Shown here: positions 13,156-60,450 of the stretch, piece by piece
Position numbering within the stretch: the stretch's first letter is position 1
How the letters are laid out: each line of letters begins with the position of its first letter
Assembly: GCA_026874595.1 (NCBI GenBank)
Contig: CM049307.1
Location: 37,428,862-37,492,861 of the forward strand
DNA: 64,000 bases
Reading direction: 5' to 3'
DNA from: Sipunculus nudus
Lineage: Eukaryota > Annelida > Sipuncula > Golfingiida > Sipunculidae
Position numbers and translations under genes: made by a program
The notes under the pieces: generated by a model
Databases searched by the model: none
What the model was told of the DNA's origin: nothing
The model's input: only the letters and a program-made list of their open reading frames with translations

Positions 13156-13161
13156 TTTATT
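13156..13161 (-). terminator. Polyadenylation signal AATAAA overlapping the stop codon
   Basis: On the minus strand the last codons read TAC TAA and the next bases make AATAAA, so the canonical poly(A) signal begins inside the TAA stop. A second AATAAA lies about 75 nt further at 13087-13082. Use of the first would give a 3'UTR of only some 15-30 nt; which is used cannot be told from sequence. Confidence 0.5.
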
Positions 13162-13266
13162 AGTATATGAAAGTGTTGTTTGCTTGTTTTCTTGACCCAT
13201 GGTACAGCACTCTGTTTCCTGATGTCCTTTTGTTGTCCTCTTTCCAAGCAGGACCAACCTCATCAC
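13160..13266 (-). CDS. Exon 4 (last coding exon) of the four-exon unrecognised gene
   Basis: The acceptor is TATCTATCTTTCAG ending at 13267. The exon supplies the last two bases of a Gly codon split with exon 3 (phase 1) and then 34 residues to a TAA at 13162-13160. The peptide begins DEVGPAWKEDNKRTSGN and ends NNTFIY. It is basic (6 Lys/Arg against 4 Asp/Glu) with no domain I recognise. The frame stays open only in the phase demanded by exon 3, which is the main support for linking the two. Intron 3 is about 2.7 kb. The total joined protein is 243 residues. Confidence 0.72.
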
Positions 13267-15286: not shown

Positions 15287-16003
15287 ACCACGAGCATGAT
15301 GTACGTTAGTTTACTGACACCTTTTTGTGACATAATGGATCACACTGACAGATGGCTGTGTGGTCACATCCAACAAGTGCAAGTGGTAAAATGTGCTATA
15401 AAAACCCATAAAACACTCATTCAGGGGTTATTTACGCTTGAATTTACACCAAAATTGAACTTCATGAACACTTTTACATTACCAACCATTATGACAAATT
15501 TCAATAACATCCCTGATACATCCCCAGATTTGGTCCAGACACACATACACACACTCAGAAACATATGAGTGTCCTGATGTTACACTTGTAATCCTACTAA
15601 AGTCTGAGCATTATTCCCCTCTTAACTTTGCTGATACAGGCCCCCCAGGCCCCATACTCTATCTGTAGGCAGTATCTTGCCAGGACGCTGTCCTTGGACC
15701 GTGGTGTAAATTCTTGTTGAATCCCAAGGTCCTTACATGGAACCCTGACAGGTTAATCTGTGTGCACAGATTATACCAAATATCAAACACTGACAGGTTT
15801 ATTTAATTGCATAAACATTAAATCCTGGATATTCAATGAGATTTCCTATACAATTTAAAAACAATCCGAATTCTTAATTCAGGCAAGTGAAATTTCAGGA
15901 CATCACTTTTTACAATAGGAATTTTGTTCTAATTAGAAAAAGAAGTCAGGCACAGGGGAGTGGGTTACTGTCTTTTTAATCAGCTTCCAGCATTAATTGT
16001 TAC

Positions 16004-16214
16004 CTGTAAGGACATTGTACTGCCTCCGTACTGGGCTAGACCGTGGTACCCCCGGTCCCAGGAGCACACCAAGCTTATTGTGCACTCTGTTGTACTGCGT
16101 CCAGCCGTAGTTGCTGGATAAACGTCCATCCTTGCTGGAGAGTACTGTCTTGACCCCTGAGCTGTCATTCATGTTCATCTTGTTCTCGAAGGTTGGCCAG
16201 TGTATTTTATAATA
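16004..16214 (-). CDS. Exon 3 of the four-exon unrecognised gene
   Basis: Read on the minus strand, the acceptor CCTATTTCCAG ends at 16215 and the donor CTTACAG|GTAAC lies at 16004/16003. The exon is 211 nt: phase 0 at the start and phase 1 at the end, encoding 70 residues plus one base. It starts YYKIHWPTFENK and includes SSKDGRLSSNYGWTQY and later VRRQYNVLT. It is basic (10 Lys/Arg, 3 Asp/Glu) with no recognised domain. The first six codons and the acceptor itself are homologous to the monomer of the adjoining minisatellite, so this exon boundary either seeded the array or was made by it. GC content is clearly higher than in the flanking intron, as expected for an exon. Confidence 0.8.
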
Positions 16215-19200
16215 CTGGAAATAGGTAACATCACAGGTAAACAGTGTGGTTTATAATACTGGAAGCAGGTTAATCATCTAGATAAAGAGTGTAGTTTATA
16301 ATACTGGAAAATGGGTAAATCATAGATAAACAATGTAGTTTATAATACTGGAATATTGGTATCATAGGTAAACAGTGTAGTTTATTATTATAAAACTGGA
16401 ATCAGGTAAATCTTCTAGGTAAAGATTGTAGTTTATAATACTGAAAATGAGGAAATAATTGGTAAACAGTGTAGTTTAAAATACAGGAAAATTGGTATCA
16501 TAGGTAAACAGTGTAGTTTATTATTATAAAACTGGAATCAGGTAAATCTTCTAGGTAAAGAGTGTAGTTTATAATACTGAAAATGAGGAAATAATTGGTA
16601 AACAGTGTAGTTTAAAATACAGGAAAATTGGTATCATAGGTAAACAGTGTAGTTTATTATTATAAAACTGGAATCAGGTAAATCTTCTAGGTAAAGATTG
16701 AAGTTTATAATACTGAAAATGAGGAAATAATTGGTAAACAGTGTAGTTTAAAATACAGGAAAATTGGTATCATAGGTAAACAGTGTAGTTTATTATTATA
16801 AAACTGGAATCAGGTAAATCTTCTAGGTAAAGAGTGTAGTTTATAATACTGAAAATGAGGAAATAATTGGTAAACAGTGTAGTTTAAAATACAGGAAAAT
16901 TGGTATCATAGGTAAACAGTGTAGTTTATTATTATAAAACTGGAATCAGGTAAATCTTCTAGGTAAAGAGTGTAGTTTATAATACTGAAAATGAGGAAAT
17001 AATTGGTAAACAGTGTAGTTTAAAATACAGGAAAATTGGTATCATAGGTAAACAGTGTAGTTTATTATTATAAAACTGGAATCAGGTAAATCTTCTAGGT
17101 AAAGAGTGTAGTTTATAATACTGAAAATGAGGAAATAATTGGTAAACAGTGTAGTTTAAAATACAGGAAAATTGGTATCATAGGTAAACAGTGTAGTTTA
17201 TTATTATAAAACTGGAATCAGGTAAATCATCTAGGTAAAGATTGAAGTTTATAATACTGAAAATGAGGAAATAATTGGTAAACAGTGTAGTTTAAAATAC
17301 AGGAAAATTGGTATCATAGGTAAACAGTGTAGTTTATTATTATAAAACTGGAATCAGGTAAATCTTATAGGTAAAGAGTGTAGTTTATAATACTGAAAAT
17401 GAGGAAATAATTGGTAAACAGTGTAGTTTAAAATACAGGAAAATTGGTATCATAGGTAAACAGTGTAGTTTATTATTATAAAACTGGAATCAGGTAAATC
17501 TTCTAGGTAAAGAGTGTAGTTTATAATACTGAAAATGAGGAAATAATTGGTAAACAGTGTAGTTAAAAATACAGGAAAATCGGTATCATAGGTAAACAGT
17601 GTAGTTTATTATTATAAAACTGGAAGCAGGTAAATCTTCTAGGTAAAGAGTGTAGTTTATAATACTGAAAATGGGGAAATCATTGGTAAACAGTGTAGTT
17701 TAAAATACAGGAAAATTGGTATCATAGGTAAACAGTGTAGTTTATTATTATAAAACTGGAAGCAGGTAAATCTTCTAGGTAAAGAGTGTAGTTTATAATA
17801 CTGAAAATGAGGAAATAATTGGTAAACAGTGTAGTTTAAAATACAGGAAAATCGGTATCATAGGTAAACAGTGTAGTTTATTATTATAAAACTGGAAGCA
17901 GGTAAATCTTCTAGGTAAAGAGTGTAGTTTATAATACTGAAAATGGGGAAATCATTGGTAAACAGTGCAGTTTAAAATACAGGAAAATTGGTATCATAGG
18001 TAAACAGTGTAGTTTATTATTATAAAAATGGAATCAGGTAAATCTTCTAGGTAAAGATTGAAGTTTATAATACTGAAAATGGGGAAATAATTGGTAAACA
18101 GTGTAGTTTATAATACTGAAAAATCGGTATCATAGGTAAACAGTGTAGTTTATTATTATAAAACTGGAATCAGGTAAATCTTCTAGGTAAAGAGTGTAGT
18201 TTATTATACTGAAAATGGGGAAATCATTGGTAAACAGTGTAGTTTATAATACTGGAAAATGGGTAAATCATAGATAAACAATGTAGTTTATAATACTGGA
18301 ATATTGGTATCATAGGTAAACAGTGTAGTTTATTATTATAAAACTGGAATCAGGTAAATCTTCTAGGTAAAGAGTGTAGTTTATAATACTGTAAATGAGG
18401 AAATAATTGGTAAACAGTGTAGTTTAAAATACAGGAAAATCGGTATCATAGGTAAACAGTGTAGTTTATTATTATAAAACTGGAAGCAGGTAAATCTTCT
18501 AGGTAAAGAGTGTAGTTTATAATACTGAAAATGGGGGAAATCATTGGTAAACAGTGTAGTTTAAAATACAGGAAAATTGGTATCATAGGTAAACAGTGTA
18601 GTTTATTATTATAAAACTGGAAGCAGGTAAATCTTCTAGGTAAAGATTGAAGTTTATAATACTGAAAATGGGGAAATAATTGGTAAACAGTGTAGTTTAA
18701 AATACAGGAAAATTGGTATCATAGGTAAACAGTGTAGTTTATTATTATAAAACTGGAATCAGGTAAATCTTCTAGGTAAAGATTGAAGTTTATAATACTG
18801 AAAATGGGGAAATCATTGGTAAACAGTGTAGTTTATAATTCTGGAAAATCTGTATCATAGGTAAACAGTGTAGTTTATTATTATAAAACTGGAATCAGGT
18901 AAATCTTCTAGGTAAAGAGTGTAGTTTATAATACTGAAAATGGGGAAATCATTGGTAAACAGTGTAGTTTAAAATACAGGAAAATTGGTATCATAGGTAA
19001 ACAGTGTAGTTTATTATTATAAAACTGGAAGCAGGTAAATCTTCTAGGTAAAGATTAAAGTTTATAATACTGAAAATGGGGAAATCATTGGTAAACAGTG
19101 TAGTTTATAAAACTGGAAAATCGGTATCATAGGTAAACAGTGTAGTTTATTATTATAAAACTGGAAGCAGGTAAATCGTCTAGGTAAAGAGTGTAGTTTA

Positions 19201-22200
19201 TAATACTGAAAATGGGGAAATCATTGGTAAACAGTGTAGTTTAAAATACAGGAAAATTGGTATCATAGGTAAACAGTGTAGTTTATTATTATAAAACTGG
19301 AATCAGGTAAATCTTCTAGGTAAAGAGTGTAGTTTATAATACTGAAAATGGGGAAATCATTGGTAAACAGTGTAGTTTATAATACTCGAAAATCGGTATC
19401 ATCGGTAAACAGTGTAGTTTATTATTATTAAACTGGAATCAGGTAAATCTTCTAGGTAAAGATTGAAGTTTATAATACTGAAAATGGGGCAATCATTGGT
19501 AAACAGTGTAGTTTATAATACTGGAAAATCGGTATCATAGGTAAACAGTGTAGTTTATTATTATAAAACTGGAATCAGGTAAATCTTCTAGGTAAAGAGT
19601 GTAGTTTATAATACTGAAAATGGGGAAATCATTGGTAAACAGTCTAGTTTAAAATACAGGAAAATTGGTATCATAGGTAAACTGTGTAGTTTATTATTAT
19701 AAAACTGGAAGCAGGTAAATCTTCTAGGTAAAGATTAAAGTTAATAATACTGAAAATGGGGAAATCATTGGTAAACAGTGTAGTTTAAAATACAGGAAAA
19801 TTGGTATCATAGGTAAACTGTGTAGTTTATTATTATAAAACTGGAAGCAGGTAAATCTTCTAGGTAAAGATTGAAGTTTATAATACTGAAAATGGGGAAA
19901 TCATTGGTAAACAGTGTAGTTTATAATACTGGAAAATCGGTATCATAGGTAAACAGTGTAGTTTATTATTATAAAACTGGAAGCAGGTAAATCTTCTAGG
20001 TAAAGAGTGTAGTTTATAATACTGAAAATGAGGAAATAATTGGTAAACAGTGTAGTTTAAAATACAGGAAAATTGGTATCATAGGTAAACAGTGTAGTTT
20101 ATTATTATAAAACTGGAATCAGGTAAATCTTCTAGGTAAAGAGTGTAGTTTATAATACTGAAAATGAGGAAATAATTGGTAAACAGTGTAGTTTAAAATA
20201 CAGGAAAATTGGTATCATAGGTAAACAGTGTAGTTTATTATTATAAAACTGGAATCAGGTAAATCTTCTAGGTAAAGATTGAAGTTTATAATACTGAAAA
20301 TGGGGAAATCATTGGTAAACAGTGTAGTTTATAATTCTGGAAAATCTGTATCATAGGTAAACAGTGTAGTTTATTATTATAAAACTGGAATCAGGTAAAT
20401 CTTCTAGGTAAAGAGTGTAGTTTATAATACTGAAAATGGGGAAATCATTGGTAAACAGTGTAGTTTATAATACTGGAAAATCGGTATCATAGGTAAACAG
20501 TGAAGTTTATTATTATAAAACTGGAATCAGGTAAATCTTCTATGTAAAGATTGAAGTTTATAATACTGAAAATGGGGAAATCATTGGTAAACAGTGTAGT
20601 TTAAAATACAGGAAAATTGGTATCATAGGTAAACAGTGTAGTTTATTATTATAAAACTGGAATCAGGTAAATCTTCTAGGTAAAGAGTGTAGTTTATAAT
20701 ACTGAAAATGGGGAAATCATTGGTAAACAGTGTAGTTTATAATACTGGAAAATCGGTATCATAGGTAAACAGTGTAGTTTATTATTATTAAACTGGAATC
20801 AGGTAAATCTTCTAGGTAAAGATTGAAGTTTATAATACTGAAAATGGGGAAATCATTGGTAAACAGTGTAGTTTAAAATACAGGAAAATTGGTATCATAG
20901 GTAAACAGTGTAGTTTATTATTATAAAACTGGAATCAGGTAAATCTTCTAGGTAAAGATTGAAGTTTATAATACTGAAAATGGGGAAATCATTGGTAAAC
21001 AGTGTAGTTTAAAATACAGGAAAATTGGTATCATAGGTAAACAGTGTAGTTTATTATTATAAAACTGGAATCAGGTAAATCTTCTAGGTAAAGAGTGTAG
21101 TTTATAATACTGAAAATAGGGAAATCATTGGTAAACAGTGTAGTTTAAAATACAGGAAAATTGGTATCATAGGTAAACAGTGTAGTTTATTATTATAAAA
21201 CTGGAATCAGGTAAATCTTCTAGGTAAAGATTGAAGTTCATAATACTGAAAATGGGGAAATCATTGGTAAACAGTGTAGTTTAAAATACAGGAAAATTGG
21301 TATCATAGGTAAACAGTGTAGTTTATTATTATAAAACTGGAATCAGGTAAATCTTCTAGGTAAAGAGTGTAGTTTATAATACTGAAAATGGGGAAATCAT
21401 TGGTAAACAGTGTAGTTTATAATACTGGAAAATCGGTATCATAGGTAAACAGTGTAGTTTAATATTATAAAACTGGAATCAGGTAAATCTTCTAGGTAAA
21501 GATTGAAGTTTATAATACTGAAAATGGGGAAATCATTGGTAAACAGTGTAGTTTAAAATACAGGAAAATTGGTATCATAGGAAAACTGTGTAGTTTATTA
21601 TTATAAAACTGGAATCAGGTAAATCTTCTAGGTAAAGATTGAAGTTTATAATACTGAAAATGGGGAAATCATTGGTAAACAGTGTAGTTTAAAATACAGG
21701 AAAATTGGTATCATAGGTAAACAGTGTAGTTTATTATTATAAAACTGGAATCAGGTAAATCTTCTAGGTAAAGAGTGTAGTTTATAATACTGAAAATGGA
21801 GGAATCATTGGTAAACAGTGTAGTTTAAAATACAGGAAAATTGGTATCATAGGTAAACAGTGTAGTTTATTATTATAAAACTGGAATCAGGTAAATCTTC
21901 TAGGTAAAGAGTGTAGTTTATAATACTGAAAATGGGGAAATCATTGGTAAACAGTGTAGTTTATAATACTGGAAAAATAATACTGGAAAATCGGTATCAT
22001 AGGTAAACAGTGTAGTTTATTATTATTAAACAGGAATCAGGTAAATCTTCTAGGTAAAGATTGAAGTTTATAATACTGAAAATGGGGAAATCATTGGTAA
22101 ACAGTGTAGTTTATAATACTGGAAAATCGGTATCATAGGTAAACAGTGTAGTTTATTATTATAAAACTGGAAGCAGGTAAATCTTCTAGGTAAAGAGTGT

Positions 22201-24575
22201 AGTTTATAATACTGAAAATGGGGAAATCATTGGTAAACAGTGTAGTTTAAAATACAGGAAAATTGGTATCATAGGTAAACAGTGTAGTTTATTATTATAA
22301 AACTGGAATCAGGTAAATCTTCTAGGTAAAGAGTGTAGTTTATAATACTGAAAATGGGGAAATCATTGGTAAACAGTGTAGTTTATAATACTGGAAAATC
22401 GGTATCATAGGTAAACAGTGTAGTTTATTATTATAAAACTGGAATCAGGTAAATATTCTAGGTAAAGATTGAAGTTTATAATACTGAAAATGGGGAAATC
22501 ATTGGTAAACAGTGTAGTTTAAAATACAGGAAAATTGGTATCATAGGTAAACAGTGTAGTTTATTATTATAAAACTGGAATCAGGTAAATCTTCTAGGTA
22601 AAGATTGAAGTTTATAATACTGAAAATGGGAAAATCATTGGTAAACAGTGTAGTTTAAAATACAGGAAAATTGGTATCATAGGTAAACAGTGTAGTTTAT
22701 TATTATAAAACTGGAAGCAGGTAAATCTTCTAGGTAAAGATTGAAGTTTATGAAACTGAAAATGGGGAAATCATTGGTAAACAGTGTAGTTTAAAATACA
22801 GGAAAATTGGTATCATAGGTAAACAGTGTAGTTTATTATTATAAAACTGGAATCAGGTAAATCTTCTAGGTAAAGAGTGTAGTTTATAATACTGAAAATG
22901 GGGAAATCATTGGTAAACAGTGTAGTTTATAATACTGGAAAAATAATACTGGAAAATCGGTATCATAGGTAAACAGTGTAGTTTATTATTATTAAACAGG
23001 AATCAGGTAAATCTTCTAGGTAAAGATTGAAGTTTATAATACTGAAAATGGGGAAATCATTGGTAAACAGTGTAGTAAATAATACTGGAAAATCGGTATC
23101 ATAGGTAAACAGTGTAGTTTATTATTATTAAACAGGAATCAGGTAAATCTTCTAGGTAAAGATTGAAGTTTATAATACTGAAAATGGGGAAATCATTGGT
23201 AAACAGTGTAGTTTAAAATACAGGAAAATTGGTATCATAGGTAAACTGTGTAGTGTATTATTATAAAACTGGAAGCAGGTAAATCTTCTAGGTAAAGATT
23301 GAAGTTTATAATACTGAAAATGGGGAAATCATTGGTAAACAGTGTAGTTAAAAATACAGGAAAATTGGTATCATAGGTAAACTGTGTAGTTTATTATTAT
23401 AAAACTGGAAGCAGGTAAATCTTCTAGGTAAAGATTGAAGTTTATAATACTGAAAATGGGGAAATCATTGGTAAACAGTGTAGTTTATAATACTGGAAAA
23501 TCGGTATCATAGGTAAACAGTGTAGTTTATTATTATAAAACTGGAAGCAGGTAAATCTTCTAGGTAAAGAGTGTAGTTTATAATACTGAAAATGGGGAAA
23601 TCATTGGTAAACAGTGTAGTTTAAAATACAGGAAAATTGGTATCATAGGTAAACAGTGTAGTTTATTATTATAAAACTGGAATCAGGTAAATCTTCTAGG
23701 TAAAGAGTGTAGTTTATAATACTGAAAATGGGGAAATAATTGGTAAACAGTGTAGTTTATAATACTGGAAAATCGGTATCATAGGTAAACAGTGTAGTTT
23801 ATTATTATAAAACTGGAATCAGGTAAATCTTCTAGGTAAAGATTGAAGTTTATAATACTGAAAATGGGGAAATCATTGGTAAACAGTGTAGTTTAAAATA
23901 CAGGAAAATTGGTATCATAGGTAAACAGTGTAGTTTATTATTATAAAACTGGAAGCAGGTAAATCTTCTAGGTAAAGATTGAAGTTTATAATACTGAAAA
24001 TGGGGAAATCATTGGTAAACAGTGTAGTTTATAATACAGGAAAATTGGTATCATAGGTAAACAGTGTAGTTTATTATTATAAAACTGGAAGCAGGAAAAT
24101 CTTCTAGGTAAAGATTGAAGTTTATAATACTGAAAATGGGGAAATCATTGGTAAACAGTGTAGTTTAAAATACAGGAAAATTGGTATCATAGGTAAACAG
24201 TGTAATTTATTATTATAAAACTGGAAGCAGGTAAATCTTCTAGGTAAAGAGTGTTGTTTAAAATACTGGAAAATGGGGAAATCATTGGTAAACAGTGTAG
24301 TTTATAATACAGGAAAATTGGTATCATAGGTAAACAGTGTAGTTTATTATTATAAAACTGGAATCAGGTAAATCTTCTAGGTAAAGATTGAAGTTTATAA
24401 TACTGAAAATGGGGAAATCATTGGTAAACAGAGTAGTTTAAAATACAGGAAAATTGGTATCATAGGTAAACAGTGTAGTTTATTATTATAAAACTGGAAG
24501 CAGGTAAATCTTCTAGGTAAAGAGTGTTGTTTAAAATACTGGAAAATGGGAATTCATAGGTAAAGAATGTAGTTT
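16197..24575. repeat. 8.4-kb higher-order minisatellite, 136-bp unit, adjoining exon 3
   Basis: A three-part unit of 136 bp repeats about 60 times. The parts are about 38, 56 and 42 bp and all share GGTAAA-CAGTGTAGTTTA-TAATACTGGAAA-type monomer sequence. The phrase GTAGTTTATTATTATAAAAC recurs at 16513, 16649 and 16785 (spacing exactly 136). The first three or four monomers, next to the exon, are simpler and not yet in the three-part order. Units near 16.4-17.6 kb carry GAGGAAATAATT, while later ones mostly carry GGGGAAATCATT. Every frame is closed quickly by stops. The far end (24540-24575) decays into unique sequence. The array lies in intron 2, directly 5' of exon 3 in transcript order. Confidence 0.95.
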
Positions 24576-26050
24576 TTTATACTAGGGAAGGGGGACATCA
24601 TCAGTATACACCTGGATAAAGATTTCCAGTACTGTAAACTGCATGGAATGGATATACCAAATATTTTGAAGAAAATTGTGAAGTATGTAGTGACAAATGA
24701 CTATTTACTGATACACACATTAATGTCTACAAGCGTTTTTCTTCAGTTTTAGATGCACTTTTTAGGCAATGGATGGTTTGATGATTTCTTTTTATTAATA
24801 TTGCAATTAATCTGTCGACATCATCTGCGGTTTTCCCTATAAAACACAAAGTTAATACCAAAAGAAGAATTAGTTCTCAACAAAAACAGTTGAGTGGTGT
24901 TCAATAATTTGGCTAAAGTTCAGGAACTGTGATACATAATCATTCAATAACTCAACAAATTTCTTTAAGAAAATCTCAAATTAAATAGGTCAGTACTTTA
25001 GGTTTTCCAGTCTTTGTAAAATTCATTCACTTTTTTCAATCTTAAAGATACGTTAAGACAGTAACAGAGATGACAATCAGCCAATGGCAGTGCAGATTTA
25101 GAGACATTTGGTGGAGGGTCATGCAGTTAGTTCTCCTTAGTGCATCCTCCCCTTGCCATGAAGTGCAACACAGGTGTAAAGCAGATTTTTTTATACATAT
25201 TCATTTAGTCCCAGATGATCCTGCTTGTGTTTGAAATTAACCATCTGCAAACAATGCTTTATGGCCCCACTTGCTGTTTATAATTCCCAGCTGGAACACT
25301 TTGAAAACCCCTAAGCATTACATCAGGCAAATATCAAGGCACGTCAGTAACTATAGAGTAAGTCATTGAGGTACTGAACGTTGCCGACCGGCCTGAATCT
25401 GGGTGTGTACAACAAGTGTTCCTGTACATAAAAAACTGACTTCTTACTACAATCATTAGTAAACAATCCCCTGGTACTTAATTAGCCTCAGTGAGCATGC
25501 TGGCTACACCTGGAGCACACGTAGAGATTATTTACTCAGGACTTATAAACATTTGTAAATAAGCCATATTACTAGAGTGATTATACACAGAGATAGGTAA
25601 CATATACAGTATATAGCAACTCAGCTGGTGAATGAACAAGAATTTTTAATCTGTACAATCTCTCAAGAATAAACAGGAACTATGAGCCACATGGTGTAAA
25701 AAAACCCTTGTTATTTAAGAAAAATAAGAATTTTAATTTCCTCTTAGGAAATAAAGGAATTTGAGGCACCTTTAGAAAGTGCAAGTCATCTGTTTCTTAA
25801 AGAGAATTAAGATTTAACAGATATATAGTATATCAAGGAAAGCAGGTACTCCAAGCTAGTGTACAAAACAAGGCCTTCCTCTTCCAGGAAACATAAGAAT
25901 TTTCATTCCCTCTAAAGGAAATATAGGAATTTGAGGCTCCTTTAGAATGTAAGAGTTATCTCTCTCTCAAGGCGGATTCAGATTTCCAAAATATACAGTA
26001 GTATATTAAGCCAACCTCAGGACAATCATTTAATTTTTGTTTTCATACAA
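24576..26050. other. Intron 2, no exon seen
   Basis: Unique-looking AT-rich sequence between two repeats. A phrase of the kind GGAAATAAAGGAATTTGAGGC-CCTTTAGAA occurs twice (about 25746 and 25918), showing an old local duplication of about 170 bp. Nothing coding is visible. Confidence 0.55.
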
Positions 26051-30603: not shown

Positions 30604-30753
30604 CGGTTGCGTATCCTTTTCGTGGAAGTTACTTTTATAGAGCGGTAACCAGGGGGTGGAATACTGGCCACCTAGTGAGAACTGTGAAGTGTGTTGTGAC
30701 GGGAATGGGATGGGCCTCTCAGCGGGTGCTAAGGTTTTGCTTCCTCCAAAATT
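30604..30753 (-). CDS. Exon 2 of the four-exon unrecognised gene
   Basis: The minus-strand acceptor TTTTCAG ends at 30754 and the donor is CAACCG|GTGAGT at 30604/30603. The 150-nt exon encodes exactly 50 residues in phase 0/0. It opens NFGGSKTLAPAERPIPFPSQ and ends YKSNFHEKDTQP, rich in Pro, Ser, Phe and Gln. Translation continues without a stop into exon 3. The exon is richer in GC than the intron around it. No domain is recognised. Another phase-0 exon could exist in the long introns and would be invisible to this argument. Confidence 0.72.
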
Positions 30754-36088: not shown

Positions 36089-36292
36089 AAATATCAATGA
36101 GATAAACAGATGTTAACAAGGCAAGAGGCAAATCTAAGCTCACAGGCTTACAGTCAATCCCTTCAATACATATTATGGTATCTTAATTAAAAATATCAAT
36201 GAGATAAACAGATGTTAACAAGGCAAGAGGCAAATCTAAGCTCACAGGCTTACAGTCAATCCCTTCAATACATATTATGGTATCTTAATCAA
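36089..36292. repeat. 102-bp perfect tandem duplication
   Basis: AAATATCAATGAGATAAACA begins both copies, at 36089 and 36191. The two copies are essentially identical up to TATCTTAAT, indicating a very recent duplication. Confidence 0.95.
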
Positions 36293-38112: not shown

Positions 38113-38551
38113 TAATGTGATTTCTGGCTTACATTGCTTACATATTCATGATCTGTAGTAAATTTCTGCTTAGAAAGGTTTTTATGACATTTTTGTGATG
38201 GCTGTGTGAGCATGTTCACCTTCAAGCTTTAATAAACGTGGCTCATGCACCTATGCTGACAGAGAGACCATGCAATGGGAGGTGGTTCACTTGGCTAAAT
38301 GTTTGTGGAAGCTGAAGGGTCAATAGTATTTGGCTAATGTGATTTCTGGCTTACATTGCTTACATATTCATGATCTGTAGTAAATTTCTGCTTAGAAAGG
38401 TTTTTATGACATTTTTGTGATGGCTGTGTGAGGATGTTCACCTTCAAGCTTTAATAAACGTGGCTCATGCACCTATGCTGACAGAGAGACCATGCAATGG
38501 GAGGTGGTTCACTTGGCTAAATGTTTGTGGAAGCTGAAGGGTCAATAGTTG
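38113..38551. repeat. 217-bp direct duplication
   Basis: Two near-identical copies (38113-38329 and 38335-38551) start with TAATGTGATTTCTGGCTTAC and end with GAAGGGTCAATAGT. They differ by about one base, so the event is recent. Confidence 0.95.
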
Positions 38552-46985: not shown

Positions 46986-47249
46986 CATCTTTGAGGATGT
47001 GGTGTAATCAGTGTGTGGCTGTGTCCGGATGGTGAATGTACTTCTGTGGTTGGCTCTGCTCCCTTTAGTGAACGGCAGAGGTTTAGAGACACAACGTGAT
47101 TTATATGGCTCATCTGTAATGATAGTGACGAAGTCCCCTTGATCAGCCAGGATGGTGGTGGCAGTTTTACCTTGGCCATGCCGTACGCTGCTGACTGGTT
47201 TTGCCAGTACGGAACAGTCGTAGTCTATCGGACTCTTCGCGGCTAACAT
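46986..47249 (-). CDS. Exon 1 (first coding exon) of the four-exon unrecognised gene
   Basis: The ATG at 47249-47247 has A at -3 and an in-frame TAA 24 nt upstream (47273-47271), which supports this start. The exon encodes 88 residues and ends at the donor AAGATG|GTAAGA (46986/46985) in phase 0. The peptide begins MLAAKSPIDYDCSVLAKP and includes TTILADQGDFVTIITDEPYK and FTIRTQPHTDYTTSSKM. No signal peptide or membrane segment is seen. Joined to exons 2-4, the product is 243 residues, with about 32 Lys/Arg against 17 Asp/Glu and many Ser, Thr, Pro and Tyr. Short, basic, Tyr/Pro-rich proteins of this kind include many axonemal microtubule inner proteins, but I could not match it to one; that remains a guess. 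Confidence 0.75.
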
Positions 47250-50639: not shown

Positions 50640-52503
50640 GAGTACTGACAAACAAACTAGACCTGTCTAGCTGTAAAACTCGCCGAGTTATCAGCATTTC
50701 CCTGAAATCTCGTGTTTTCTCGTGTGACCAGATACGGTGCGAGATTGTGCCTTACTTGCAGTTTTGTCCTGTCAAGCTGGCCATGTGGAACGAAATGCCG
50801 AAAACTAGACCTGTCTAGCTGCAGTTTCGTGAAATCTGGTGTTATCTCGTTTGACGAGATATGGTGTGAGATTTTGCCAGGCTTGCATATCTGTCGTGTT
50901 AAGGTGGTCTAGTGGAACCAAATGCCGAAAACCAGACGTGTCTATCTGTAAAACTGGCCGAGTTATAAGCATTTTGGTGAAATCTCGTGTTTTCTCGTTT
51001 GACGAGATACGGTGCGACATTCGGCCTGACTTTCAGTTCTATCATGTCCAGCAGGTCATGTGAAACAAAATCCCGAAAACGAGACCTGTCTAGCTGTAAA
51101 ACTCGCCGAGTTATAAGCATTTCCGTGAAATCTCGTTTTTTCTCGTTTGACGAGATGGGGTGCGAGAGTTGGCCTGACTTGCAGTTCTGTCGTGTCAAGC
51201 TGGTCATGTGGAAGAAAATGCCGAAAACTAGATCTGCCTAGCTGTAAAACTGGCCGAGTTATAAGCATTTCCGTGAAATCCCATGTTTTCTCATTTGACG
51301 AGATACGGTGCGAGATTTGGCCTGTCTTGCAGCTCTGTCGTGTCAAGCTGGTCATGTGGAAGAAAATGCCGAAAACTAGATCTGCCTAGCTGTAAAACTG
51401 GCCGAGTTATAAGCATTTCCGTGAAATCCCATGTTTTCTCGTTTGACGAGATACGGTGCGAGATTTGGCCTGATTTGCAGATCTGTCGTGTCAAGCTTGT
51501 TTGGTGGAACGAAATGCCGAAAACCAGACCTGTCTAGCTGTAAAAGTCGCCGAGTTATAAGCATTTCCGCGAAGTCTCGTTTTTTCTCGTTTGCCGAGAT
51601 ATGGCGCGAGATTTGGCGTGACTTTCAGTTCTGTCGTGTCAAGCTGGTCATGTGGAACAAGATGCCGAAAACTAGATCTGCCTAGCTTAAAAACTGACAA
51701 AGTTACAAAAAATGGTCGTGTTATTTCCAATTTCCATGATTTTTGCCCAAAAAATGTAACCATGGTAACGGCACTTGCATATCTGTCGTGTCAAGCTGGT
51801 CTAGTGGAACTAAATGCCGAAAACCAGACGTGTCTAGCTGTAAAACTGGCCCAGTTATAAGCATTTCCGTGAAATCTCGTGTTTTCTCGTTTGACGAGAT
51901 ACGGTGCGAGATTTGGTCTGACTTGCAACTCTGTCGTGTCAAGCTTGTTTGGTGGAACGAAATGCCGAAAACCAGACCTGTCTAGCTGTAAAAGTCGCCG
52001 AGTTATAAGCATTTCCGCGAAGTCTCGTTTTTTCTCGTTTGACGAGATATGGCACGAGATTTGGCGTGACTTTCAGTTCTGTCGTGTCAAGCTGGTCATG
52101 TGGAACAAAATGCCGAAAACTAGATCTGCCTAGCTTAAAAACTGACAAAGTTACAAAAAATGGTCGTGTTATTTCCAATTTCCGTGAATTTTGCCCAAAA
52201 ATTGTAACCATGGTAACGGCAAATTTAAGTAAGCTACATATCAAAAGAAAGGCCAGGTGATGACGAAAATAAATGAGCTATTGCAGAAGTGGATAAGCCT
52301 ATTTATGGCGAAGTTATAGTGCAAAAACCGTTAACCATACCTGTCGTGACCTTGACCCTTGACCTTGGAGCAATGTTGACCAAAAACAATAGGGCACCTA
52401 GAAATCGGTTTGTCAATCAAGCCTGTAAGTTTCAAGTTGATTGATGCAAAAGTGTGACCTGGAGAGTCGTGACAAACAAACAAACAAACAAACAAACAAA
52501 CAA
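50640..52503. repeat. Composite element copy A: 148-bp monomer array plus terminal domain
   Basis: About nine monomers of 148 bp. Each holds the stem TCTCGT-TTG-ACGAGA and, at the junction, the inverted repeat CTAGAC-CT-GTCTAG. Hairpins recur at about 50992, 51140, 51288, 51436 and 51584, spacing 148. Two interruptions of about 90 bp (about 51690-51772 and 52140-52220) carry GTAACCATGGTAAC. A terminal domain (52220-52503) holds TGACCTTGACCC and an (AAAC)n tail. Because 148 is not a multiple of 3, each monomer opens a new frame, giving staggered ORFs of 60-100 codons on both strands. None is likely to be a gene. Confidence 0.9.
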
Positions 52504-54656
52504 GATGACCAGAGGTCACGCGCTTGCCGGAAATGGAAATGATAGAGACAGATAGACAGAGAGTGCATGAAGAAACAGTCATATGAATGAGCAACATTGT
52601 GGGGGCAGCAGAAACGGATAATATGTTTATTTATGCATGCTGACCTTTAACAGCTGCATATCTTTCTAGTGTAAAAGGGACCAAGTTCAAAATTTTTTCA
52701 TGAAATCCCGTTAATCTCGTTTGACAAGAAGCAGTGACACGTTTTCAGGTTTGTCATGTCAAGCTGGCCAAATGATATGAAATGCCGAAAACTAGACCTG
52801 TCTAGCTATAAAAGCCGCTGAGTTATAAGCATTTGCATGAAATCTCGTGTTTTCTCGTTTGACGGGAAATGGTGCGAGCTTGTGCCTGACTTGGAGTTCT
52901 GTCATGTCAAGCGGGTCATGTGGAACTAAATGCCGAAAACTAGACCTGTCTAGCTGCAGTTCCGTGAAATCTCGTGTTTTCTCGTTTGACGGGATACGGT
53001 GCGAGATTTTGCCTGACATGCATGTCTGTCGTGTCAAGCTGGTCTAGTGGAACAAAATGCCGAAAACCAGACGTGTCTATCTGTAACACTCGCCGAGTTA
53101 TAACCAATGCCGTGAAATCTCATGTTTTCTCGTTTGACGAGATACGGTGCGACATTCGGCCTGACTTTCAGTTCTGTCATGTCCAGCAGGACATGTCAAA
53201 CAAAATGCCGAAAACTAGACCTGTCCAGCTGTAAAACTCGCCGAGTTATAAGCATTTCCGTGAAATCTCGTGTTTTCTCGTTTGACGAGATAGGGTGCGA
53301 GATTTGGCCTGACTTGTACATCTATCGTGTCAAGCTGGTCATGTGGAAGGAAATGCCGGAAACCAGACCTGTCTAGCTGTAAAACTGGCCGAGTTATAAG
53401 CATTTCCGTGAAATTTCGTGTTTTCTCGTTTGACCAGATATGGCGCGAGATTTTGCCAGACTTGCATATCTGTCGTGTCAAGCTGGTCTAGTGGAACTAA
53501 ATGCCGAAAACCAGACGTGTCTAGCTGTAAAACTGGCCCAGTTATAAGCATTTCCGTGAAATCCCGTGTTTTCTCGTTTGACGAGATACGGTGCGAGATT
53601 TGGCCTGTCTTGCAGCTCTGTCGTATCAAGCTTGTTTGGTGGAACGAAATGCCGATAACCAGACCTGTCTAGCTGTAAAAGTCGCCGAGTTATAAGCATT
53701 TCCGCGAAGTCTCGTTTTTTCTCGTTTGACGAGATATGGCGCGAGATTTGGCGTGACTTTCAGTTCTGTCGTGTCAAGCTGGTCATGTGGAACAAAATGC
53801 CGAAAACTAGATCTGCCTAGCTTAAAAACTGACAAAGTTACAAAAAATGGTCGTGTTATTTCCAATTTCCATGATTTTTGCCCAAAAAATGTAACCATGG
53901 TAACGGCACTTGCATATCTGTCGTGTCAAGCTGGTCTAGAGGAACTAAATGCCGAAAACCAGACGTGTCTAGCTGTAAAACTGGCCCAGTTATAAGCATT
54001 TCCGTGAAATCCCGTGTTTTCTCGTTTGACGAGATACGGTGCGAGATTTGGCCTGTCTTGCAGCTCTGTCGTGTCAAGCTTGTTTGGTGGAACGAAATGC
54101 CGAAAACCAGACCTGTCTAGCTGTTAAAGTCGCCGAGTTATAAGCATTTCCGCGAAGTCTCGTTTTTTCTCGTTTGACGAGATATGGCGCGAGATTTGGC
54201 GTGACTTTCAGTTCTGTCGTGTCAAGCTGGTTATGTGGAACAAAATGCCGAAAACTAGATCTGCCTAGCTTAAAAACTGACAAAGTTACAAAAAATGGTC
54301 GTGTTATTTCCAATTTCCATGATTTTTACCCCAAAAAATGTAACCATGGTAACGGCAAATTTAAGTAAGCTACATGTCAAAAGAAAGGCCAGGTGATGAC
54401 GAAAAAAATGAGCTATTGCAGAAGTGGATAAGCCTATTTATGGCGAAGTTATAGTGCAAAAACCGTTAACCATACCTGTCGTGACCTTGACCCTTGACCT
54501 TGGAGCAATGTTGACCAAAAACAATAGGGCACCTAGAAATCGGTTTGTCAATCAAGCTTGTAAGTTTCAAGTTGATTGATGCAAAAGTGTGACCTGGAGA
54601 GTCGTGACAAACAAACAAACAAACAAACAAACAAACAAACAAACAAACAAACTAGA
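52502..54656. repeat. Composite element copy B
   Basis: It starts with TGACCAGAGGTCACGCGCTT and a head of about 130 bp containing GTGGGGGCAGCAGAAACGG. An array of about nine 148-bp monomers follows in the same order of variants as copy A. The two interruptions with GTAACCATGGTAAC are at 53891 and 54340, and the terminal domain ends in about 12 AAAC units (54605-54653). It ends near ACTAGACGACCATAGGTCG. This copy and copy C look close to full length. Confidence 0.88.
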
Positions 54657-54998
54657 CGACCATAGGTCGAATGCTTGCCGGAAATCGGAAGTGAAACACA
54701 GACGGACAGACAGAACATATTGTCAGTTTTCTATTAATGGAATGACTCTCAGGGACATTGCTGAGAATATGTGGCCCGTAGAATGACATATGAGACAAAA
54801 GAACAGGCAAGCAGACAAAGCTGACAACAAAAGACGAACAGACAGACATACTGACTTTGTGAGACAAGATTGACACCAGATGACATAACCTGGTGATTGA
54901 GAAGATTGAAAGGAAGAAAATGAGTAATAATTTATGTAATTTAGATTTATAATTTTGGAGGTATGGCGAATTAATGATATACTAGGGAGGCTCGACTG

Positions 54999-55014
54999 TA
55001 GCGCCCTCTAGCAG
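54999..55014 (-). promoter_or_regulatory. CTCF-like core
   Basis: The minus strand reads CTGCTAGAGGGCGCTA, close to the vertebrate and fly CTCF core (CCASYAGRKGGCRC). Motif match only; binding is not shown. Confidence 0.35.
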
Positions 55015-55329
55015 ACATATTCCGAAGACGACAAATGCGTTTCGTATTATTAGTGTAAACCATGAGATGTCCCAGTTTCAAAAGGATTCCGTCAAAGCTG
55101 TGGCCTGTAGAATGCTATATGTAAGGCGTAAGAACCAGCAAGCAGGCGACTTTGAGGATAACGGACAAACAGATGGACACACTGACAAAGTGACAGAAGA
55201 TTGAAACCAGATGCCTTAATCAGGTTATGGAGAAGACTCAAAGGAAGAAAATAAGCTATAGTTTATGTAACTGAGGCTTTGGGTGTAGAGATAGGGTCAA
55301 TACAATGGTATGTGTGTGAGGGTCGTGTG

Positions 55330-55347
55330 CAGCGCCCACTAGTGGCC
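55330..55347 (-). promoter_or_regulatory. CTCF-like core
   Basis: The minus strand reads GGCCACTAGTGGGCGCTG, one mismatch from CCASYAGRKGGCRC. It is in the second unit of the 330-bp repeat. Confidence 0.4.
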
Positions 55348-55660
55348 ATATCCGGAAAATGAAAAATTTATTTCTAGATATTAGTGTAAGACATAAGATG
55401 TAATAGTTTCAAAAGGATTCTGTCAAAACTGTGGCCTACAGAATGCTATATGTGAGACGCAAGAGCCAACAAGCAGGCGAATTTGAGGACAACTGACAAA
55501 CAGATGAAAACACTGACAAAGTGACTCAAAATTGAGTCCAGATGACTACTCCAGGTTATGGAGAAGACTCAAAGGAAGAAAAAAGCTACAGTTTATGTAA
55601 CTGAGGTTTATAGTTTTGGAGATATTGCCAAAGCATGATATGTTGGGAGAGGTCCGAGTT

Positions 55661-55678
55661 CAGCGCCCCCTAGCGGCC
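55661..55678 (-). promoter_or_regulatory. CTCF-like core
   Basis: The minus strand reads GGCCGCTAGGGGGCGCTG, near the extended CTCF consensus. Third unit of the repeat. Confidence 0.4.
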
Positions 55679-55987
55679 ATATCCGAAAAATGAAAAATTG
55701 GTTTCGAGATATTAGTGTAAGACTTAAGATGTAATAGTTTCAAAAGGATTCTTTCAAAACTGTGCCCTTTAGAATGCTATATGTGAGACGCAAGAGCAAG
55801 CAGGTGAATTTGAGGACAACTGACAAACAGACAGACACACTGACAAAGTGTCACAAAATTGTGACCAGATGACTACACTAGGTTATTGAGAAAACTCAGA
55901 GGAAGAAAATAAGCTATAGTTTATGTAATTGAGGCTTATAATTTTGGAGATATGGCCCAAATATGATATGTTCGGGAGGTTTGCATC

Positions 55988-56005
55988 CAGCGCCCCCTAG
56001 CGGCC
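55988..56005 (-). promoter_or_regulatory. CTCF-like core
   Basis: Identical to the core of the preceding unit (GGCCGCTAGGGGGCGCTG on the minus strand). Fourth unit. Confidence 0.4.
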
Positions 56006-56270
56006 CTATTCAAAAAATGAAAAAACGATTTCGAGATACTAGTGTAGGACTTATAATATGTCAGTTTCAGAAAGATTCCTGCAATAATGTGGCCTTTGGC
56101 GCAAGATGAATGAAATCTCAAAATATCTCTATTCACGTGATATTTTACGAGATACTGCAATACTTGTTATAAAATCTTGTAGTACTAGTTCAATGCTACC
56201 TGATGCAAAAAACTAGATTACACTAGCTTTAAAACTGACAAAGTTAGAAAAATAAGACCCCTTATATTCG

Positions 56271-56726
56271 AATATCATGACTTTTCCCCCAAAATTTGTA
56301 ACCATGGTTACGGCAAATTTGAGTCAGCTACACACCAGATGACAGGCCTTGGAATGACGATTAAAATGAGCTATTGTTGAAGTAGATACGACTAATAGTC
56401 ACAAAGATATGAAGAAAAAACCGTTTTGAGAATTTTTGACGACCTTGACCTTGACCTTTGACCTATTTTAACCAAAAACAATAGGGCACCTAGAAATTTA
56501 ATTCTCCATCATCTCTGAAAGTTTTAAGGTGATTGTGGCAAAATTGTGGCCAGGAGAGTGCAGACAAACAAACAGACAGACAGACAAACAGACATACGCA
56601 ACTGAGCAATATGCTTGCCGAAATCTTTGATTCCGGCAAGCAACAAACAGACAAAGAGACAAACAGACATACGCAACTGACGAACATGCTTGCCGAAATC
56701 GAAGATTTCCGGCAAGCAACAAACAA
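56271..56726. repeat. Terminal-domain relic with AAAC/ACAG tails and two hairpins
   Basis: A diverged terminal domain carries the palindrome GTAACCATGGTTAC (56298-56311), then three TGACCT half-sites including a perfect DR1 (56452-56464). A CAGACAAACAGACAGA tail follows, with two hairpins GCTTGCCG-AAATC/GATTTCCGGCAAGC (56613-56641, imperfect; 56688-56717). It ends where copy C begins. Confidence 0.75.
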
Positions 56727-58728
56727 GATGACCAGAGGTCACGCGCTTGCCGGAAATGGAAATGATACAGACAGATAGACAGAGAGTGCATGTAGAAACA
56801 GTCATATGAATGAGCAACATTGTGGGGGCAGCAGAAACGGATAATATGTTTATTTATGCATGCTGACCTTTAACAGCTGCATATCTTTCTAGTGTAAAAG
56901 GGACCAAGTTCAAAATTTTTTCATGAAATCCCGTTAAGCTCGTTTGACAAGAAGCAGTGAGACGTTTTCAGGTTTGTCATGTCAAGCTGGCCAAATGATA
57001 TGAAATGCCGAAAACTAGACCTGTCTAGCTATAAAAGCCGCTGAGTTATAAGCATTTGCATGAAATGTCGTGTTTTCTCGTTTGACGGGAAATGGTGCGA
57101 GCTTTGGCGAGATTTCCAGTTTTGTCATGTCAGGTTTGTCAAATATTACAAAATGCCGGAAACTAGACCTGTCTAGCTGCAAAAGTCGCCGTGTTATCAG
57201 CATTTACGTGAAATCATGTTTTTTTTCTCGCTTGACGAGATATTGTACGAGATTTGGCAAGACAAGCAGTTTTATTATGTCAAGACGGCCAAACGTTACG
57301 AAATAGCGAAAACTAGATCCGTCTAGCTGTAAAAGTCGCCGAGTTATTAGCATTTCTGTGAAATCTCCTTTTTTATCGTTTGACGAGATATGGTGCGAGA
57401 TTTGGCCTGACTTGCATATCTATCGTGTCAAGCTGGTCATGTGGAAGGAAATGCCGGAAACCAGACCTGTCTGGCTGTAAAACTGGCCCAGTTATAAGCA
57501 TTTCCCTGAAATTTCGTGTTTTCTCGTTTGACGAGATACGGTGCGAGATTTTGCCAGACTTGCATATCTGTCGTGTCAAGCTGTTCTAGTGGAACTAAAT
57601 GCCGAAAACCAGACGTGTCTAGCTGTAAAACTGGCCCAGTTATAAGCATTTCCGTGAAATCCCGTGTTTTCTTGTTTGACGAGATACGGTGCGAGATTTG
57701 GCCTGTCTTGCAGCTCTGTCGTGTCAAGCTTGTTTGGTGGAACGAAATGCCGAAAACCAGACCTGTCTAGCTGTAAAAGTCGCCGAGTTATAAGCATTTC
57801 CGCGAAGTCTCGTTTTTTCTCGTTTGACGAGATATGGCACGAAATTTGGCGTGACTTTCAGTTCTGTCGTGTCAAGCTGGTCATGTGGAACAAAATGCCG
57901 AAAACTAGATCTGCCTAGCTTAAAAACTGACAAAGTTACAAAAAATGGTCGTGTTATTTCCAATTTCCATGATTTTTGCCCAAAAAATGTAACCATGGTA
58001 ACGGCACTTGCATATCTGTCGTGTCAAGCTGGACTAGTGGAACTAAATGCCGAAAACCAGACGTGTCTAGCTGTAAAACTGGCCAAGTTATAAGCATTTC
58101 CGTGAAATCCCGTGTTTTCTCGTTTGACGAGATACGGTGCGAGATTTGGCCTGTCTTGCAGCTCTGTCGTGTCAAGCTTGTTTGGTGGAACGAAATGCCG
58201 AAAACCAGACCTGTCTAGCTGTAAAAGTCGCCGAGTTATAAGCATTTCCGCGAAGTCTCGTTTTTTCTCGTTTGACGAGATATGGCGCGAGATTTGGCGT
58301 AACTTTTAGTTCTGTCGTGTCAAGCTGGTCATGTGGAACAAAATGCCGTAAACTAGATCTGCCTAGCTTAAAAACTGACAAAGTTACAAAAAAATGGTCG
58401 TGTTATTTCCAATTTCCGTGATTTTTGCCCAAAAAATGTAACCATGGTAACGGCAAATTTAAGTAAGCTACATGTCAAAAGAAAGGCCAGGTGATGACGA
58501 AAATAAATGAGCTATTGCAGAAGTGGATAAGCCTATTTATGGCAAAGTTATAGTGCAAAAACCGTTAACCATACCTGTCGTGACCTTGACCCTTGAATTT
58601 GGAGCGATGCTGACCAAAACCAATAGGACACATAATAAATCGGTTTCTCAATCAAGCCTGTAAGTTTCAAGTTGATTGATGCAAAAGTGTGGCCTCGAGA
58701 GTCGTGACAAACAAACAAACTAGACCTT
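56727..58728. repeat. Composite element copy C
   Basis: Same head as copy B (TGACCAGAGGTCACGCGCTT, then GTGGGGGCAGCAGAAACGG). It has about eight 148-bp monomers, interruptions with GTAACCATGGTAAC at 57989 and 58438, and a terminal domain with a short (AAAC)n tail ending near 58720. The second and third monomers (57077-57310) are more diverged than the rest. ORFs on both strands are repeat by-products. Confidence 0.88.
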
Positions 58729-60450
58729 CGTACCTGTAAAAATCGCCGAGTTAAAAGCATTTTGGTGAAATCTCGTGTTTTCTCGTTTGACGAGATACGG
58801 TGCGAGATTGTGCCTGACTTGGAGTCTGTCATGTCAAGCGGGTCATGTGGAACTAAATGCCGAAAACTAGACCTGTCTAGCTGCAGTTCCGTGAAATCTT
58901 GTGTTTTCTCGTTTGACGGGATACGGTGCGAGATTTTGCCTGACATGCATGTCTGTCGTGTCAAGCTGGTCTAGTGGAACAAAATGCCGAAAACCAGACC
59001 TGTCTAGCTGTAAAACTCGCCGAGTTATAAGCATTTCCGTGAAATCTCATGTTTTCTCGTTTGACGAGATAGGGTGCGAGATTTGGCCTGACTTGCACAT
59101 CTATCGTGTCAAGCTGGTCATGTGGAAGGAAATGCCGGAAACCAGACCTGTCTAGCTGTAAAACTGGCCGAGTTATAAGCATTTCCGTGAAATTCGTGTT
59201 TTCTCGTTTGACGAGATACGGTGCGAGATTTTGCGAGACTTGCATATCTGTCGTGTCAATCTGGTCTAGTGGAACTAAATGCCGAAAACCAGACGTGTCT
59301 AGCTGTAAACTGGCCCAGTTATAAGCATTTCCGTGAAATCCCGTGTTTTCTCGTTTGACGAGATACGGTGCGAGATTTGGCCTGTCTTGCAGCTCTGTCG
59401 TGTCAAGCTTTTTTGGTGGAACGAAATGCCGAAAACCAGACCTGTCTAGCTGTAAAAGTCGCCGAGTTATAAGCATTTCCGCGAAGTCTTGTTTTTTCTC
59501 GTTTGACGAGATATGGCGCGAGATTTGGCGTGACTTTCAGTTCTGTCGTGTCAAGCTGGTCATGTGGAACAAAATGCCGAAAACTAGATCTGCCTAGCTT
59601 AAAAACTGACAAAGTTACAAAAAATGGTCGTGTTATTTCCAATTTCCATGATTTTTGCCCAAAAAATGTAACCATGGTAACGGCATTTGCATATCTGTCG
59701 TGTCAAGCTGGTCTAGTAGAACTAAATGCCGAAAACCAGACGTGTCTAGCTGTAAAACTGGCCCAGTTATAAGCATTTCCGTGAAATCCCGTGTTTTCTC
59801 GTTTGACGAGATACGCTGCGAGATTTGGCCTGTCTTGCATCTCTGTCGTGTCAAGCTTGTTTGGTGGAACGAAATGCCGAAAACCAGACCTGTCTAGCTG
59901 TAAAAGTCGCCGAGTTATAAGCATTTCCGCGAAGTCTCGTTTTTTCTCGTTTGACGAGATATGGCGCGAGATTTGGCGTGACTTTCAGTTCTGTCGTGTC
60001 AAGCTAGTCATGTGGAACAAAATGCCGAAAACTAGATCTGCCTAGCTTAAAAACTGACAAAGTTAGAAAAAATGGTCGTGTTATTTCCAATTTCCGTGAT
60101 TTTTGCCCAAAAAATGTAACCATGGTAACGGCAAATTTAAGTAAGCTACATGTCAAAAGAAAGGCCAGGTGATGACGAAAAAAATGAGCTATTGCAGAAG
60201 TGGATAAGCCTATTTATGGCGAAGTTATAGTGCAAAAACCGTTAACCATACCTGTCGTGACCTTGACCCTTGACCTTGGAGCAATGTTGACCAAAAACAA
60301 TAGGGCACCTAGAAATCGGTTTGTCAATCAAGCCTGTAAGTTTCAAGTTGATTGATGCAAAAGTGTGACCTGGAGAGTCGTGACAAACAAACAAACAAAC
60401 AAACAAACAATCAAACAAACAAACAAACAAACAAACAAACAAACAGACAA
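58729..60450. repeat. Composite element copy D
   Basis: Begins directly after the tail of copy C without the usual head, so it is 5'-shortened or fused. About eight monomers follow the same variant order, with interruptions at 59668 and 60116, a terminal domain and a long (AAAC)n tail (60384-60445). The 171-residue minus-strand frame at 59476-58961 is the longest ORF in the window, but it only reflects small indels that keep three monomers in one frame. Confidence 0.88.

Follow-up and report, generated by a model that had tools for sequence, protein, structure and literature searches.

A probable mirage of satellite scale at the predicted intron 2-exon 3 junction of a gene in Sipunculus nudus

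Minisatellite-like repeats that span exon-intron boundaries, the so-called mirages, have been described in amphioxus for the globin genes BflGb6 and BflGb9 (PMC3087553); they have also been reported in PGBD5, with Adh3 and TnC cited as further cases (PMC3902484). In BflGb6, one haplotype carries 6 units of 150-160 bp and another carries 3 (PMC3087553), and reverse transcription PCR (RT-PCR) suggests that the affected amphioxus genes are spliced normally (PMC3087553, PMC3902484). Two related phenomena are known from other organisms: a tandem duplication across an intron-exon boundary led to intron gain in the RNA-dependent RNA polymerase (RdRp) gene of potato (PMC4974935), and intronic variable number tandem repeats (VNTRs) can alter splicing, as for instance in ABCA7 (PMC5954066). 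In searches of the open-licence PMC literature, mirages were found only in cephalochordate papers. Here, we describe a tandem array in the second intron of a predicted gene of Sipunculus nudus, which lies in a stretch of 64,000 nucleotides, hereafter the window (C2:37428862-37492861, contig CM049307.1 of assembly GCA_026874595.1; the assembly has 1,426,538,692 bases in 153 contigs).

With a probability of roughly 0.8, judged from sequence features, this array is a mirage, that is, a minisatellite seeded by a tandem duplication across the junction of intron 2 and exon 3. The elements on which this reading is based are the following:

16199..24609 (8,411 bases), minus strand: tandem array in intron 2, delimited by Tandem Repeats Finder (TRF) and by a split into monomers, and the only locus with this sequence found in the genome
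16199..16242, minus strand: terminal monomer, made of 28 bases at the end of intron 2 and the first 16 bases of exon 3, 37/44 identical to the consensus
24566..24609, minus strand: distal edge monomer, degenerate but in the same register, 32/44 identical to the consensus, with the motif GATGT
24623..24643, plus strand: inverted 21-base piece of a monomer just outside the distal edge, 18/21 identical

A sequence-only reading of the window had placed the array at 16197..24575; the size of 8.4 kb holds, whereas the distal end lies 34 bases further out and takes in one extra degenerate monomer. Splitting at a conserved anchor (186 anchors were found, one of them spurious) gave 185 monomers of 42-56 bp each between the distal end at 24609 and the terminal one at 16199, close to the roughly 180 estimated before. 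Most monomers are arranged as A-B-C triplets of 51, 42 and 43 bp, respectively, each triplet forming a higher-order unit of 136 bp. TRF reports 136-bp arrays at 16251-18291 (15.0 copies) and 18229-24575 (46.4 copies), in agreement with the earlier figure of about 60 units, and sub-periods of 42-44 bp from 16198 onward. Among the 59 units between successive A monomers, 54 are exactly 136 bp long; 39 of these 54 are distinct, and their mean pairwise difference is 3.9%. The monomers closest to exon 3 have a simpler form of 44-45 bp, unlike the A-B-C units of the interior.

The evidence that connects the array to the splice junction lies at its edges. As the sequence-only reading had stated, the start of exon 3 is itself a piece of the repeat: the first 17 bases of the exon are identical to the monomer at 16 positions, and this match score was reached by 0/5,000 random 18-mers from the window and by 0/2,000 dinucleotide shuffles. 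The likeness ends abruptly, since the 44 exon bases that follow the terminal monomer match the consensus at only 14/44 positions, with a background in which the best of 55,301 windows reaches 27/44. At the other end, the 44 bases outward of the distal edge monomer match at 10/44. The motif GATGT occurs twice in the whole array, once in each edge monomer and nowhere in between. That both edge monomers have diverged, lie in register and have this motif in common favours growth in place; duplication of one segment in place predicts edges of the kind seen at both array ends. As in the described mirages, the unit spans an exon-intron boundary and its outermost copy forms the boundary of exon 3, as far as the exon-3 model holds, and the edge copies stand outside the homogenisation that has kept the interior units alike. 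Outside the array, 55,507 windows were compared with the monomer in inverted orientation, and the 21-base piece is the only match of this kind.

The sequence of the array was found at this locus only. Searching the 1.43-Gb genome, with a tool that skips very common words, yielded 62 matches to the 136-bp unit, all inside the array and none elsewhere, and the 211 exon-proximal bases gave 61 matches, every one of them within the same array. An invading satellite or mobile element as the source is not supported, as this search found no copies at other loci. A scan of the window detected no tRNA and no RNA family at the gathering threshold.

The predicted host gene consists of four exons:

46986..47249, minus strand: exon 1, beginning with ATG; open frame, recovered by the genome protein search
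30604..30753, minus strand: exon 2, ending in phase 0; open frame, recovered by the genome protein search
16004..16214, minus strand: exon 3 (211 nt), with the predicted acceptor TATTTCCAG/TATTATAAA and the donor CTTACAG/GTAACA; open frame with phases that fit exons 2 and 4, its start being deduced
13160..13266, minus strand: exon 4 with the stop codon; open frame, recovered by the genome protein search

A rival reading is that the gene model or boundary is wrong, exon 3 being a first exon or no exon and the likeness to a splice site incidental. It would fit the absence of a Pfam family and of a PDB chain for the predicted protein, and exon 3 has an in-frame ATG 13 codons from its start. However, the four exons join to 732 nt, or 243 codons, without an internal stop, with GT/AG at all three introns and consistent phases, and their GC content of 0.42-0.50 exceeds the window median of 0.36 per kb. 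We thus consider a wrong model very improbable. Neither the exon-3 frame nor the joined protein matched a family in Pfam; in the PDB, the exon-3 frame obtained one chance-level row (E 0.072) and longer versions none. In a whole-genome protein search, the four exons were recovered together with a single other row at E 8.59, and the gene appears to be single-copy. A last exon near 15.7 kb, the first guess, was dropped in favour of 13160-13266, whose phase fits. No such repeat is present at the remaining five splice sites of the host gene (scores of 10.0-11.5 versus 33.0 at the exon-3 acceptor). Tandem repeats are also present elsewhere in the window: intron 1 of the host gene contains very young tandem duplications at 36089-36289 (102 bp x2, 100%) and 38113-38549 (222 bp x2, 99%), and several arrays of a 148-bp unit, with higher-order forms of 296 and 448 bp, occupy the region 50703-60133.

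Junctions of conserved genes in the same genome were surveyed for comparable repeats. From 264 listed exon matches, 147 were used (81 kinesin, 41 myosin, 25 TCP-1), bacterial chaperonin rows and merged matches being excluded, and 70 bases at each of the 294 match edges were compared with the flanks at a repeat score threshold of 20; the edges of hidden Markov model (HMM) matches are approximate exon edges and the flanks often comprised only 300 bases. Scores of at least 20 were obtained for 13/294 exon edges, 35/459 intron windows and 0/147 exon midpoints. Seven of these 13 edges carry tandem copies that span the junction together with exon bases, six of them acceptors and one a donor:

L185, kinesin acceptor: 72-bp steps, with at least four more copies within 310 bases
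L031, myosin acceptor: about 82 bp, four copies, exon part 14-16/16 identical
L196, kinesin acceptor: about 31 bp, at least nine copies filling all 304 bases examined
L049, TCP-1 acceptor: three copies, 21-26/30
L176, kinesin acceptor: 61-bp steps, four copies; the exon start TTTTAG was read from the frame, as the HMM match begins later
L044:2395-2780, TCP-1-like donor: four copies
L181, kinesin acceptor: 60 bp x 4.2, 74% alike, degenerate

The strict test also lists seven edges, with L164 in and L181 out; L164 was dropped from the final count because its repeated AG lies inside the intron, and L181 was added. L150, L215, L206, L190, L164 and L180 were not accepted as mirages, their repeats being intron-only or weak. 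In several of the seven arrays the repeated exon bases encode what we take to be hallmarks of the respective family, for example GYNGTIFAYG in kinesins and RNYHIFYCMLAG in myosins. Since the repeated part is family-conserved coding sequence, the exon seeded the repeat at those junctions.

These junctions bear on the question, posed by the sequence-only reading, of whether the splice site seeded the satellite or the terminal monomer was recruited as the exon boundary. In the latter case, the satellite would at first have been plain intron DNA, and only afterwards would the monomer at its end have added about six codons to exon 3. The first codons, YYKIHW, are without known homologue in Pfam and the PDB, and the monomer already has branch-point-like, pyrimidine and AG signals, which would make recruitment easy. 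However, the exon came first at the seven other spanning arrays, judged from their family-conserved exon parts, and no further good acceptor was seen in exon 3: down to 16019, none of its inner AGs reaches the score of the site at 16214, and the AG at 16003, with 1.8 versus 1.5, sits at the donor of the exon. Recruitment is thus unlikely. Seeding by the splice site is favoured by the single locus, the in-register edges with their shared motif and the family-conserved exon parts at the seven other junctions; for the host gene itself, we infer by analogy with these junctions that the exon was likewise the source of the repeat.

How such an array could have grown can be outlined as follows. Seeding would have begun with the tandem duplication of a short segment of 28 intron bases and 16 exon bases. 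The copy adjoining the exon would retain the acceptor and the full exon, all upstream copies would be intronic, and the duplication would be hidden from the mRNA if splicing takes place at the exon-proximal acceptor. The array would hence be free to grow, presumably by unequal exchange, at first as a row of single monomers, which is still visible at the exon edge, and later as the three-monomer unit of 136 bp. The exon-proximal acceptor would probably be chosen through exon definition, in which the donor of the 211-nt exon pairs with the nearest acceptor.

If exon 3 is spliced as predicted, a long row of potential acceptors lies directly upstream of its start. The sequence-only reading had spoken of over a hundred decoys, and a motif count yields 133 monomer-type YAG sites (Y, pyrimidine) upstream of the predicted acceptor; the AG signal is thus kept in many of the 185 monomers and lost in others, as is known from mirages. 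Two of the three monomer types keep the site, as had been noticed: YAG/T is present in 59/63 A pieces and 57/58 C pieces but in only 14/56 B pieces, 41/56 of which read CTG (the A label also covers an end piece and two B-like monomers of 56 bp). A branch-point-like yTnAy motif is located 15-45 nt upstream of 133/133 decoys, and the predicted real acceptor has one at 24 nt. When the frame is continued from exon 2 in phase 0, each of the 133 decoys leads to a stop codon, after a median of 96 nt. The expectation that this would happen within about one unit applies to 117/133 decoys, which reach the stop within 136 nt, but not to all, the maximum being 213 nt. Only the nearest decoy, at 16258, enters exon 3 before its stop:

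16259..16260, minus strand: AG of the nearest decoy acceptor, the use of which would make the exon 44 nt longer and shift its frame

The general presence of branch-point-like motifs and the stop behind every decoy would also be compatible with a function of the decoys, which could titrate splicing factors or tune expression via frameshifted isoforms and nonsense-mediated decay. The loss of the AG in most B monomers is contrary to such upkeep, and an array of this kind persists without needing a function, so that functional decoys are quite improbable; nothing in the analysis points to a function of the array.

Several observations weigh against the mirage reading. As no homologue of the host gene was found, the exon start at 16214 and the origin of the first codons are predicted only. 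The scoring of the monomers with a splice-site model, which the sequence-only reading had proposed, does not single out the predicted real acceptor: a 12-position matrix gives it 5.02 against a decoy mean of 4.56, with 58/133 decoys at or above its value; a 20-position matrix gives it 1.47, a value attained by 29/266 AGs of the array and by 9.7% of 3,025 other minus-strand AGs. Neither matrix was trained on this genome. With so many decoys at or above its score, the predicted acceptor does not owe its choice to strength; it would instead be singled out by its place next to the exon body. Finally, an enrichment of repeats at exon edges over introns was tested in the survey and not found (13/294 versus 35/459), and nothing links the duplication to splice sites themselves. 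On these numbers, no special mechanism has to be assumed other than the concealment of the duplication by splicing. In the plain reading, tandem duplications arise often in this genome, and the ones that cross a junction persist since splicing conceals them; the absence of repeats at the exon midpoints (0/147) is expected if only duplications hidden by splicing survive.

The survey and the assembly yielded some further observations. A muscle-type myosin gene (C2:44837703-44856291) has four exon matches over profile positions 122-152, which are likely alternative exons. In PDB searches, a first muscle-myosin exon matched 3i5f with 193.0 bits, seven entries with 190.8-191.3 bits and the best vertebrate entry with 190.1 bits, a near tie, and a second myosin exon query matched 3i5f with 151.1 bits, six entries with 145.6-146.9 bits, 2os8 with 135.9 bits and the best vertebrate entry with 135.7 bits; 3i5f is presumably from squid and the other top entries presumably from scallop. 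Searches for the GFP family, which is abundant in lancelets, and for the molluscan haemocyanin domain gave no match, nor did the controls run with them, and lucinid haemoglobin I was not found either. Judged by these comparisons alone, a molluscan host would be likely and a cephalochordate one unlikely. Intronless bacterial-type chaperonin genes occur with equal score at nine places (C61, C62, C66, C72, C73, C75, C89 (two) and C99), and another on C74 is split in two pieces; two of these genes were read. Among the matches listed, the nearest genome record to them is 69% identical, and these contigs probably belong to an undescribed lineage present as a symbiont or contaminant. A candidate for COX1 at C123:9280-9430 (L223; contig of 112,245 bases) was rejected, as it reads as a bacterial haem-copper oxidase, which we take to be probably ccoN; it may point to a second bacterium in the assembly. 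No mitochondrial COX1 was present among the 11 matches listed.

If exon 3 is spliced at 16214, the locus is an experiment of nature on the selection of a single 3' splice site among a row of more than 130 near-identical ones. The rate of 7/294 edges in conserved genes suggests that mirages, rather than being a lancelet oddity, account for a measurable fraction of the junctions in a further animal, and this genome is a place where intron growth by junction duplication could be studied. A wider view, which we put forward tentatively, is that junction-crossing tandem duplication might be a routine way of intron growth in this lineage, with roughly 2% of the junctions being mirages and one having reached satellite scale; splicing would reliably pick the exon-adjoining copy among more than 100 equivalent sites, and sequence exchange with the decoys could even alter the terminal copy and hence the first codons of the exon.

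Comparison with the known systems places the array. To the sequence-only reading a satellite of splice sites was unfamiliar, but the amphioxus mirages are of the same kind. The ABCA7 VNTR, which likewise is a tandem repeat within the intron of a gene, differs in that its unit, by its description, is not presented as a copy of a splice junction (PMC5954066). The potato RdRp duplication also crosses the boundary and brings a branch site, a pyrimidine tract and a 3' splice site; there, however, a single duplication created a new intron, whereas here an existing intron grew and no intron gain was seen (PMC4974935). The closest counterpart is the mirage of BflGb6, whose repeat combines the 3' terminus of an intron with the 5' portion of the following exon, as in the array described here (PMC3087553). 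Further features shared with the amphioxus mirages are copies that keep the splice signals, edge copies that escape homogenisation and the occurrence at both acceptors and donors within the genome (six and one). In contrast to those amphioxus mirages for which RT-PCR is available, the present array is known from the genomic sequence of one assembly, and its host is not a cephalochordate but another animal. Unlike BflGb6 with its 6 and 3 units, it comprises 185 monomers and has a 136-bp higher-order unit. Taken together, the array belongs to a known kind of repeat, of which it is a very large example, probably in a new phylum; what is new is its size, its higher-order unit, its host and the rate at which junction-spanning repeats occur in this genome.

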